Shown: positions 4,311-34,745 of the stretch, piece by piece
How positions within the stretch are numbered: the stretch's first letter is position 1
Layout of the letters: each line of letters starts with the position of its first letter
Assembly: GCA_016186915.1 (NCBI GenBank)
Contig: JACPKU010000006.1
Location: 313,619 to 350,085 of the forward strand
Source of the DNA: Candidatus Doudnabacteria bacterium
GTDB taxonomy: Bacteria > Patescibacteriota > Doudnabacteria > UBA920 > O2-02-FULL-48-8
Direction of reading: 5' to 3'
Length of the DNA: 36,467 bases
Notes under the pieces: generated by a model
What the model was told of the DNA's origin: nothing
What the model saw: the letters and a program-made list of their open reading frames with translations, nothing else
Databases searched by the model: none
Translations under genes and position numbers: made by a program

Positions 4311-4585
4311 TATTGAGAATGCAGATAATCTAACATTTTTTTAGTACTGGTAAAAACGGGGGAAATATTTCTTCCCTTTCTAAAATCCTCGCTGGCTTTC
4401 TTCAGAAATTTTTCGACTTCTGGCCGGAGCTTTGGCTCAAGTGAAAGTTTAATCTCACGATTTCGGATAAAATCCTTCAAATACGCATTAATAACAGTGC
4501 TTAGGGGCAAGCCTAAGTTTTGCGCTATCTTTTGGGCATCTTTCTTAACCTCTTTATCGGTTTTTATAATGATCTGGGTCTTCAT
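4310..4585 (-). CDS. RelB/DinJ-type antitoxin
   Basis: Ribbon-helix-helix antitoxin, 91 residues: IIIKTDKEVKKDAQKIAQNLG then LPLSTVINAYLKDFI, the classical RelB/DinJ N-terminal pattern, with a C-terminal part for toxin binding. The start codon sits at the edge of an inverted repeat (GGGATGAAG) that can pair with the start of the leader minigene upstream (see 4583-4686), so its translation may depend on that leader. No SD is present. Confidence 0.87.
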   Translation of the reverse strand: MKTQIIIKTDKEVKKDAQKIAQNLGLPLSTVINAYLKDFIRNREIKLSLEPKLRPEVEKFLKKASEDFRKGRNISPVFTSTKKMLDYLHSQ

Positions 4586-4686
4586 CCCGTTTAGAAATTT
4601 AATTGCTAAGCTTGCTGTTAATTTGATATTTCCCGTTAGCCGGCGATTATTTAAAAAGCATCGTGGAAATTTCTAACGGGATTCAT
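4583..4686 (-). promoter_or_regulatory. MNPVRN inverted-repeat leader element, copy 1 (relBE)
   Basis: On the minus strand ATCCCGTTAGAAATTT (from 4684) and AAATTTCTAAACGGGAT (to 4584) are complementary apart from one bulge and enclose about 66 nt. The 5' arm starts at a likely transcription start and encodes an 11-residue peptide; the 3' arm takes in the first two bases of the relB ATG. Copies at 16812-16917 and 34682-34745 share the arms; copies 1 and 2 also share inner words (ATATnAAATnACAGCAA). Confidence 0.75.
4651..4686 (-). CDS. Putative leader minigene MNPVRNFHDAF
   Basis: Twelve codons from ATG (4686) to TAA. The ATG lies only about 6 nt downstream of the -10 box, so the transcript would be leaderless or nearly so, which fits the absence of an SD. 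The first six residues are the same as in the copy at 16897-16917. I infer a regulatory peptide whose translation opens the inverted repeat. Confidence 0.45.
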   Translation of the reverse strand: MNPVRNFHDAF

Positions 4687-4692
4687 AGCTAA

Positions 4693-4720
4693 AGTATATA
4701 CAACGGGTTTTATTTGTCAA
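4693..4720 (-). promoter_or_regulatory. relBE promoter
   Basis: TTGACA (4715-4720), 16-nt spacer, TATACT (4693-4698) on the minus strand. Confidence 0.75.
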
Positions 4721-4789: not shown

Positions 4790-5176
4790 TTATTTAATCT
4801 TTTTTGAATGCCTTTTAAGCCAGTTTGCTATTTCTTTTAATTCTAATTTTTCATTGACAACTTTCATTATAAATTTTACCACTTCGGGATTCGGGAGCAA
4901 CAGCGTATAGTTATTTAGAAATAAAAACCTAGCGGCAGAGGCAAACCCGGTTCTTTTATTTCCATCTACGAACACATGATAATTTGCAAAAGCTTCCAAA
5001 TAAACTGCGGCCTTAACAAATACACTTACATACGGTTCTTTTCCACCAAATTCCATTTTGGGTTTTTCTATAATTGAAAGAAAAAGACCGGTGTCCCTAA
5101 TCCCGTGTAAGCCACCGGTCTCATCTATAATCTTCGAATGGAGAACTAAAATTTCTTCTCCTGTCAAATATTTCAT
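4790..5176 (-). CDS. Doc-type Fic toxin
   Basis: Doc proteins are Fic-fold kinases that phosphorylate EF-Tu. The 128-residue product carries the Fic motif HVFVDGNKRTG at 67-77 (consensus HxFxDGNKR) and the preceding helix EAFANYHVF, and has the usual death-on-curing length. It directly follows, without a gap, a small AbrB-type gene that probably neutralises it. The three toxin-antitoxin pairs lie head to tail in this 2-kb stretch. Confidence 0.9.
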   Translation of the reverse strand: MKYLTGEEILVLHSKIIDETGGLHGIRDTGLFLSIIEKPKMEFGGKEPYVSVFVKAAVYLEAFANYHVFVDGNKRTGFASAARFLFLNNYTLLLPNPEVVKFIMKVVNEKLELKEIANWLKRHSKKIK

Positions 5177-5410
5177 TTATTTCTTAGCCAAGGCTTCCAA
5201 TGCTGGCCTGTATTGTTCAATAAACTTTCCCGTCCAATCCAAGAGTTTCTTGTCAATTTTTTTATTGCTGGGTTCAATCAAAACAACTTGGTTTTTGCGG
5301 TCAATCTGAACACTCACATGGTCGCCAATTTTGAGGCCAAGCTCTTCCAAGGATTTTTTAGGGATGGTAACAGCGGCGCTGGAGCCGACTTTTAAAACTT
5401 TTTGAGTCAT
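5177..5410 (-). CDS. AbrB/MazE-type antitoxin of the Doc toxin
   Basis: A 77-residue protein with an AbrB-fold N terminus (LKVGSSAAVTIPKKSLEELG, LKIGDHVSVQID) and a C-terminal tail (KKLLDWTGKFIEQYRPALEA) resembling the toxin-binding tails of Phd/AbrB antitoxins. Its TAA is followed at once by the doc ATG. It has a good promoter of its own (5435-5463). Confidence 0.82.
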   Translation of the reverse strand: MTQKVLKVGSSAAVTIPKKSLEELGLKIGDHVSVQIDRKNQVVLIEPSNKKIDKKLLDWTGKFIEQYRPALEALAKK

Positions 5411-12024: not shown

Positions 12025-12033
12025 AAAAAATAC

Positions 12034-12208
12034 ACCTTCTTTCATCCCGACTATACGGTCGGCCCTGGAATTACACCAGATCATGCCACTGACTAGGTGG
12101 CTCGTGGGCTAAACCCTCTCTCGGCCTTCGGCCACTCTCTCCCAAGGAGAGAGAGATAAAAAGAAAGGGTCATTACCACCGATTGCCGAATCACACGGCA
12201 CCCTGAAA
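12034..12208 (-). ncRNA. FMN riboswitch (RFN element)
   Basis: On the minus strand the conserved RFN blocks appear in order: TCAGGGTGCCGTGTGATTCG, then AATCGGTGGTAATGACC, TTAGCCCACGAGCC, GATCTGGTGTAATTCCAGG, GCCGACCGTATAGTC and GGGATGAAAGAAGG. These correspond to the RFN consensus (CAGGGTGAAATTCC, CGGCGGTAAT, AGCCCGCGAGCC, GATCCGGTGAGATTCCGG, GCCGACGGT, GTCCGGATGGAAGAAGG). A palindromic hairpin (CTCTCTCC..., about 12117-12150) is inserted in the variable arm before AGCCC. The SD (GAAGG) of the transporter gene lies in the last conserved strand, so FMN binding likely blocks translation. Confidence 0.9.
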
Positions 12209-12212
12209 ATGT

Positions 12213-12653
12213 TTAATTACTTGGATTATAACTGGAGAAAAACTGTCTGGCAAACAGCTCATCCTGTTTCATCTGCTCGATCAATTCGTCCGCAGAATCA
12301 AATTTTTCGTTCTCTCGAATCTTTTTGATGAGTTCCACCCCTAACTCTTTCCCGTAAATGTCATATGTAAAATCCAGGATATACACTTCTACTTTTCTCT
12401 CCTGCTCATCAAAAGTCTTCGCGCTACCGATAAAGATTAAGGCAGGCAAATATTTTTGTTCCGGCATGATCGCTTTCCTCGGCCACAACTTGCGGACAAA
12501 CAATGGCGGCAGACCATTTTCTATGTGCGTGACTAAGCCTACATAAACACCTTCTTCGGCGTGGGTTTCCGCATCCAAATTCGCGGTCGGGAATCCTAAC
12601 TGCTTGCCTCGTCCCAAATGTTTTTTCACTTTACCGGAGATTATTGTTGCCAT
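12213..12653 (-). CDS. Riboflavin kinase (flavokinase domain alone)
   Basis: Phosphorylates riboflavin to FMN. With the start MATIISGKVKKHLGRGKQLG the product is 146 residues and equals the C-terminal kinase domain of RibF: GRGKQLGFPTANLD (14-27), AEEGVYVGLV, and the C-terminal EVYILDFTYDIYGKEL. The adenylyltransferase half is not fused; a separate nucleotidyltransferase lies just upstream (12721-13191). A longer start would add residues encoded by a palindromic repeat (MLPERSEAESKAI) and is less likely. Confidence 0.9.
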   Translation of the reverse strand: MATIISGKVKKHLGRGKQLGFPTANLDAETHAEEGVYVGLVTHIENGLPPLFVRKLWPRKAIMPEQKYLPALIFIGSAKTFDEQERKVEVYILDFTYDIYGKELGVELIKKIRENEKFDSADELIEQMKQDELFARQFFSSYNPSN

Positions 12654-16675: not shown

Positions 16676-16814
16676 AAAATTAAAATCCGACCATGCCGGT
16701 CGGTTAGTTTTGTTTGTCTGCCTTCGACAAGCTCAGGCATCAATACAGCAAAACTTACCGACCTCTGTATCGGAAAAAATAAAACCAAAACTGATTAGTA
16801 ATAGATGAATTCAC
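16676..16814 (-). promoter_or_regulatory. Attenuator A (aromatic-type leader RNA)
   Basis: Minus-strand segments: 1 = CCGAT (16773-16769), 2 = GGTCGGT (16763-16757), 3 = ACCGACC (16704-16698), 4 = GGTCGG then ATTTTAATTTT (16692-16676). 1:2 and 3:4 are short stems; 2:3 pairs 7 bp, with a further AGT/ACT beyond one mismatch. A palindromic repeat (ccttcgacaagctcaggc) sits in the 2-3 loop. Confidence 0.75.
16755..16814 (-). CDS. Aromatic-rich leader peptide (19 aa)
   Basis: GTG start: MNSSITNQFWFYFFRYRGR and TAA. Six aromatic codons in a row (TTT TGG TTT TAT TTT TTC), then Arg and another Tyr. The run sits just ahead of segment 1. Its GTG is inside the 3' arm of the MNPVRN element, so translation may depend on that element. 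Confidence 0.6.
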   Translation of the reverse strand: MNSSITNQFWFYFFRYRGR

Positions 16815-16917
16815 CCCGTTAGAAATACTGTAATATGGCAAATTGTTTGCTGTCATTTAATATAAATTCGTTTAAGAACTCCGTAAAATTTGATTATTAA
16901 TTTCTAACGGGGTTCAT
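16812..16917 (-). promoter_or_regulatory. MNPVRN inverted-repeat leader element, copy 2
   Basis: Arms ACCCCGTTAGAAAT (16913-16900) and ATTTCTAACGGGGT (16826-16813) pair over 14 bp; the 3' arm covers the first two bases of the GTG of the aromatic leader. Confidence 0.75.
16897..16917 (-). CDS. Putative leader minigene MNPVRN
   Basis: ATG AAC CCC GTT AGA AAT TAA, starting about 12 nt after the -10 box; same six residues as the relBE leader minigene. Confidence 0.4.
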   Translation of the reverse strand: MNPVRN

Positions 16918-34681: not shown

Positions 34682-34745
34682 TCCCGTTAGAAATCCGAAG
34701 TCACAACTTCGGCGGATGTCCAAGGGCATCCTATTTCTAACGGGA
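34682..34745. repeat. MNPVRN-type inverted repeat, copy 3 (degenerate)
   Basis: TCCCGTTAGAAAT and ATTTCTAACGGGA enclose 38 nt that contain two more hairpins (CCGAAG/CTTCGG; GGATG/CATCC). No promoter or ATG precedes the 5' arm on the minus strand (TTTATCCCG), so the minigene is lost. Confidence 0.7.

Follow-up and report, generated by a model that had tools for sequence, protein, structure and literature searches.

A probable MITE of Patescibacteria and other bacteria, often found at start codons, with upstream reading frames that lead to the gene in a subset of copies

Judged by its sequence, the leader of a relB-like antitoxin gene in Candidatus Doudnabacteria bacterium consists of a copy of a small mobile element of the non-autonomous kind (MITE): the element is short, multi-copy and without a transposase gene, it has terminal inverted repeats and a target duplication of fixed length, and element-free sites are present in relatives. 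No autonomous parent with these ends was seen in the loci around copies. The explanation that very probably accounts best for all the observations is that this MITE has inserted at start codons and rebuilt them, and that a subset of its copies has upstream frames coupled to the gene. The relB copy was found in a 36,467-nt window (the whole stretch of DNA analysed; assembly GCA_016186915.1, contig JACPKU010000006.1, positions 313,619–350,085), and all features of the relB arrangement are on the minus strand (Table 1).

Table 1. Coordinates of the relB arrangement and of the other element copies in the window.
Feature	Position in window	Strand	Remarks
-35 hexamer TTGACA	4715..4720	-	native relB promoter, outside the element; the same promoter precedes an element-free relB homologue in genome G011
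-10 hexamer TATACT	4693..4698	-	16-nt spacer to -35
Promoter-side target duplication TGAA	4682..4685	-	with A4686, original start codon context ATGAA
Upstream ORF ('minigene') MNPVRNFHDAF + stop	4651..4686	-	duplicated start codon reading into the element
Mobile element at relB	4585..4681	-	95 bp CCCG...CGGG plus terminal T/A pair
Left terminal inverted repeat TCCCGTTAGAAAT	4669..4681	-	
Right terminal inverted repeat ATTTCTAAACGGGA	4585..4598	-	ends in the A of the relB ATG
Gene-side target duplication TGAA	4581..4584	-	
relB-like antitoxin gene, 91 aa	4310..4585	-	weak Pfam RelB and DUF6364 matches, both below curated cut-off
YafQ/ParE-type (RelE superfamily) toxin gene, 85 aa	4053..4310	-	partner of the antitoxin
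Second window copy	16814..16912	.	C...G ends, TTCA duplicated on both sides, non-coding
Third window copy	34682..34745	.	T...A ends, 62 bp between CCCG and CGGG, non-coding

The sequence-only reading had described a promoter, TTGACA-16-TATACT, followed after 6 nt by ATG AAT CCC GTT AGA AAT, and this order is indeed present on the minus strand. The promoter matches at 11 of 12 positions, TTAGCT lies between the -10 hexamer and the upstream ATG (4686–4684), and the sequence ATGAATCCCGTTAGAAAT which begins there pairs with AAATTTCTAAACGGGATG, the end of which is the relB start codon (ATG at 4585–4583, minus strand). The left arm contains the 12-mer CCCGTTAGAAAT (4680–4669, minus strand) and the right arm ATTTCTAAACGGG (4598–4586, minus strand) has one A more than the perfect complement, so the proposed complementarity is real but takes the form of a stem with a one-base bulge on the gene side. 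The minigene had been read as the six codons MNPVRN; the actual frame has 11 codons and a UAA stop at 4653–4651, 65 nt before the relB AUG. The spacing of the promoter suggests that the minigene may be leaderless. At window positions 4632–4643, inside the relB copy, there is also a partial extra arm (CCCGTTAGCCGG, plus strand), perhaps the remnant of an earlier element.

The arm 12-mer matches five times in the window, compared to 0.18 matches expected, and the 728-kb genome contains 24 exact arms and none of the reversed control, nearly all of them in close inverted pairs. Each element has 13-bp terminal inverted repeats (YCCCGTTAGAAAT/ATTTCTAACGGGR) and is usually about 60–120 bp long; in the source genome the distance from CCCG to CGGG ranges from 38 to 117 bp, and there is no transposase gene in the element. 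For comparison across the family we used 239 distinct copies, in which the inverted repeat is sharply bounded at 13 bp, as terminal repeats predict. The terminal Y/R pair covaries, with a T-A or C-G pair formed by the first and last base in 221 of the 239. An exact 4-bp direct duplication flanks 162 of the 239 copies, including 102/143 at start codons and 60/96 elsewhere, where the shuffled mean is 10.2 and the maximum 19; duplications of any other length are seen in seven or fewer of the non-start copies. The target sites are TRAA-like, and many non-start copies are in TAAA or TTTA. From these signatures we infer that copies have transposed. In genome G002 the copies L169, L033, L021 and L219 sit at the start codons of different genes and have almost the same interior, which suggests a recent spread from start codon to start codon.

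Relatives have sites that lack the element. The rplI gene is without it in nine of 12 family genomes, usually with a TATAAT-like box a few nucleotides before the ATG, and hpf is without it in five of 12. At the relB homologue of G011 the sequence TTGACA-16-TATACT-TTAGCT is kept and the element is absent, although with 57% identity and a leader 6 nt longer we regard this as supporting evidence rather than as an exact empty site. Among the relB homologues found, only that of the source genome (G000) has the element. Tandem copies are present at rplI (G000) and at trpS (G002), and look like second insertions into a rebuilt start codon. The interiors of hpf copies from different genera are no more alike than interiors at other genes, which disfavours vertical inheritance of these copies and makes repeated insertion at least as likely. 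We note that at rplI of G002 (L293) there is one TGA within the aligned rplI region, and the -10 box of the relatives is lost upstream of the element.

To describe where copies lie we scanned GTDB contigs, taking copies regardless of context and counting a start codon if its frame is at least 50 aa or runs off the contig. A start codon coincides exactly with the end of the element in 65 of the 122 copies, and the proportion is 51/74 in Patescibacteria but 5/34 elsewhere (P 1.2e-7; 14 copies of unassigned bacteria excluded). A census of exact arms in five Doudnabacteria genomes gives 58 of 75 at start codons, plus two tandem copies. With gene starts taken from a crude ORF caller, TGAA is used by 46 copies for 182 sites at start codons and by 16 copies for 1157 other non-coding sites, corresponding to a ratio of 18 (copies to sites) or an odds ratio of 24 (Fisher test, P 3e-29). 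A start-codon position is commoner for copies with T...A ends (ATG rebuilt) than for those with C...G ends (GTG rebuilt). The genes hit in the source genome are unrelated and include, by inspection of the sequence, those for an ABC permease, YjbQ, L36, HPF, L9, NAD kinase, TrpS and relB, with Pfam checks covering HPF, L9 and relB. Wherever interiors can be aligned the orientation relative to the gene is the same (117/117 pairs). Non-start copies oriented by a TRRA duplication agree in 20 pairs and disagree in four, all involving L246; several agreeing pairs are related, which leaves modest independent support for orientation. The simplest interpretation is a direction of insertion set by the target, with orientation thereby fixed at ATGAA.

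We propose that the element would insert in a fixed orientation into 4-bp TRAA-type targets, duplicating them. Entry at A|TGAA would give ATGAA-[TCCCG...CGGGA]-TGAA, in which the duplicated TGAA and the terminal A (or G) of the element would rebuild an ATG (or GTG) at the right end; the old ATG would stay on the promoter side and a leader of roughly 100 nt would be added to the gene. From the old ATG, ribosomes would read MNPVRN... into the element, and in a subset of copies this upstream frame would end at the right-arm UAA, 4 nt before the rebuilt AUG, such that terminating ribosomes could restart on the gene. No designed regulator is needed for the leaderless minigene, for MNPVRN or for a start codon where the stem ends, all of which insertion into ATGAA would explain. 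MNPVRN is not a conserved peptide, since it follows from ATGAA plus the repeat and both ORF length and later sequence vary. A search for copies with a promoter and ATG on one side and a start codon on the other, suggested as a check of the regulatory proposal, is mostly positive, but the main cause appears to be insertion, not design.

Several observations bear on whether the upstream frame is used. Boxes resembling -10 hexamers peak 6–9 nt before the upstream ATG of start-codon copies. Across the family the upstream ORF is between 6 and 48 codons long, and the peptides differ beyond MNPVRN. Of 121 start-codon copies with an upstream start codon, 58 have the right-arm UAA in frame with it, above one third, and 33 of these 58 are fully open, compared to 10.2 (sd 2.8, maximum 17) in dinucleotide shuffles of the interiors, in a test that arose in exploration rather than being planned beforehand. 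Where the UAA is out of frame 11/63 copies are open (9.8 expected), in two controls without an upstream start codon 4/24 and 2/9 (3.6 and 1.6 expected), and among non-start in-frame copies 6/20 (5.8 expected). One control, the non-start out-of-frame copies, is above the null, with 18/40 open and 11.3 expected, and shuffling can therefore underestimate the null to some extent. The excess persists when each cluster of similar interiors has a single representative (21.7–30 open, against 6–8.7). Frames 1 and 2 are unusable as an upstream-ORF control because the repeat itself holds stops in both.

In five further copies the upstream ORF overlaps the gene start as AUGA, and in five it continues in frame into the gene, the in-frame fusions including L100, L113, L147 and L269. 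The complete UAA-CGGG-AUG arrangement is found in only 33 of the 121 copies with an upstream start codon, and the ABC permease copy L011 is an example of UAA coupling; interrupted and out-of-frame versions are common, so coupling cannot be required in general. The statistical case for a role of upstream translation in a subset of copies is nonetheless good, and suggests that in some hosts ribosomes are fed to the gene through the open frame, presumably by reinitiation. An upstream ORF that reaches the gene start and is kept by selection is thus a property of a subset of the family (33/58 against 10.2) and is absent from the relB copy, where strict coupling is unsupported and unlikely because of the early stop. 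The idea that expression depends on translation of the minigene is partly supported, for some members of the family but not for the relB copy from which it came.

The relB copy folds at -23.3 kcal/mol with a z of -1.4, which is not unusual for its composition, and an extended helix across the interior is disfavoured, with pairing beyond 13 bp close to the shuffled level. An Rfam search gave no RNA family match at the element. Copies of the Kazan lineage have interiors that share blocks, and one of them folds better than all shuffles. Separately, in the Kazan-lineage start-codon copies L059–L063 and L142 the left arm is preceded by YYTG and the right arm followed by ATGG, with no direct duplication; these flanks could form G-U pairs over the AUG in the RNA. 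The interiors of the same six copies are unusually conserved at both ends.

What moves the element was sought in genomes and around copies. IS1380/piggyBac-type elements make 4-bp target duplications and have ends beginning with CCC, both of which the element shares, although the resemblance of the ends is only a lead. IS1380-type transposases (PF13701, DDE_Tnp_1_4) are absent from all ten copy-rich Patescibacteria genomes, and IS1380 is not supported as the mobiliser. Neither is RAYT/REP: the Y1 (REP-associated tyrosine) transposase (Y1_Tnp) is absent from eight of the ten, including the source genome. In the sequence stretches around copies, no autonomous element or transposase lies between distant arms, only ordinary genes. 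Identity with integron attC sites is rejected, since the arms come in the reverse order (GTTAG... first).

Two alternative explanations concern how start-codon copies come to predominate. The copies could be those of a plain selfish MITE with no role for translation, which persist at start codons since an insertion anywhere else in these very compact genomes harms promoters or genes. We consider this possible but doubtful: the start-codon bias is strong only in Patescibacteria and favours the ATG-rebuilding ends, as such survival would have it, but use of TGAA at start codons exceeds that of the remaining non-coding TGAA sites 18- to 24-fold, and selection on translation is needed if frames are to stay open just in those copies that have the UAA in frame. 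The transposase itself might instead recognise start-codon or promoter-proximal DNA, such as DNA opened at the transcription starts of leaderless genes. This fits the orientation fixed relative to both gene and target, the tandem insertions into a rebuilt start codon and the -10 enrichment just upstream of start-codon copies; it is nevertheless unlikely given the many non-start copies in TAAA or TTTA sites, the weak bias outside Patescibacteria and the absences of Y1_Tnp and IS1380-type transposases described above. As between targeting and selection, a bias limited to Patescibacteria and an excess of T...A ends, which restore ATG, speak for selection; the constant orientation and the recurrent insertion at hpf, rplI and trpS would fit targeting. 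A stronger proposal, which we think possible but doubtful, is that the element specifically targets start codons with a terminal repeat built to survive there, and constitutes a widespread translation-dependent leader in Patescibacteria. The three frames of the right arm would then give UAA-CGGG-AUG, an AUGA overlap or an in-frame fusion, the last base would restore the start codon with orientation fixed, and ribosomes entering at the old start would translate the host gene.

Two other explanations dispense with insertion as the main cause. In a dedicated regulatory leader, as originally proposed, the stem would hide the relB start and translation of the leaderless minigene would open it. All the parts (promoter, ATG, stem, start codon) exist, open upstream frames that stop just short of the gene are in excess across the family, and the -10 boxes have the appropriate position. 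But non-genic copies in many phyla have these arms too, together with 4-bp duplications, pairing in the stem is confined to the arms and the relB copy folds like shuffled sequence; moreover the relB ORF stops well short of the gene, ORF length varies widely in the family, and no relB homologue found outside G000 has the element. None of the tests that we ran supports hiding of the relB start, and we regard such a leader as quite improbable. Less credible still is a conserved structured RNA, riboswitch-like or protein-binding, common to many genes, although the same arms precede rplI, hpf, rpmJ, trpS and others and the shared blocks and the one well-folding copy of the Kazan lineage point in that direction. 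The lack of an Rfam match, interiors at the same gene in different genera that are no more alike than those at different genes, the target duplications and the non-genic copies together make it very improbable. Insertion of a MITE at start codons, with coupling in a subset, is the explanation that we retain.

The element can be compared with several known systems. Prokaryotic MITEs are short and non-coding, with inverted-repeat ends, a target duplication and many copies, and are presumed to be moved in trans (PMC10969869). The element resembles them in all of these sequence features but differs from MITEs in general in that about two thirds of the sampled Patescibacteria copies are exactly at start codons, in one orientation and rebuilding the start. 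The text of that review contains neither 'start codon' nor 'Patescibacteria' (PMC10969869); we found no description of a MITE with the start codon as its regular site in the open-licence literature, nor of the element or its arm sequence in literature on MITEs or on leaderless genes in Patescibacteria. The Correia repeat enclosed elements (CREE) of Neisseria are inverted-repeat elements of about 100 bp that lie upstream of genes, are co-transcribed with them, have TA as their usual target, and exert their effects through promoters, IHF and RNase III; one copy, in a footnote, supplies the A of an ATG initiation codon (PMC2649163). Size, the presence of inverted repeats and location upstream of genes are similar, but insertion at the start codon is here the rule and not a single case, and with 4-bp TRAA-type targets and different ends the element is not a Correia element.

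Rickettsia palindromic elements are small palindromes of a reduced genome; they insert within genes without breaking the frame and are translated as part of the protein (PMC10969869). Like them, the element would be a small palindromic mobile element read by ribosomes, but the usual outcome is a separate upstream ORF; copies are mostly at start codons or non-coding and share no conserved peptide beyond MNPVRN, and so do not belong with the Rickettsia elements. Termination-reinitiation coupling is usually between native genes of an operon (PMC6728339). The stop a few nucleotides before the next start (UAACGGGAUG), or overlapping it (AUGA in five copies), resembles such junctions as described there, but would here have been created by insertion of a mobile element rather than between operon genes.

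The element accounts for short ORFs of the MNPVRN type beside gene starts in these genomes, and shows one way in which bacteria with small genomes can tolerate a mobile element, by insertion at a start codon that restores that codon. If coupling is true, ribosome supply has been changed for dozens of unrelated genes, including those for ribosomal proteins, HPF and tRNA synthetases. In these bacteria, which are difficult to culture, the element also offers a natural experiment on leaderless initiation and reinitiation.

The distribution is patchy, with the exact arm pair at the searched spacing in 17 of 379 Patescibacteria genomes; paired arms are also on contigs of Deltaproteobacteria, Omnitrophota, Planctomycetota, Stahlbacteria/WOR-3, Nitrospirae, KSB1 and Elusimicrobia. 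Three copies (L318–L320) are on two IMG/VR viral contigs, which are possible vehicles, with no further clue to viral carriage. Several of the copies L197, L212, L246, L250 and L252 of genome G267 are in near-identical short flanks (AATCTCTAAAC / GTAAACAAT), and L246 has an interior inverted relative to the other G267 copies with those flanks. The copy at L072:1916–2102 ends exactly at the 5' end of a tRNA-Leu gene, with its two final G serving as bases 1 and 2 of the predicted tRNA. In the window itself, a Fic/Doc-type gene behind a MazE/AbrB-type antitoxin gene (4790–5410, minus strand) is directly upstream of the relB toxin-antitoxin pair, and an FMN riboswitch (Rfam RF00050, 86 bits) is located at 12030–12214 on the minus strand.
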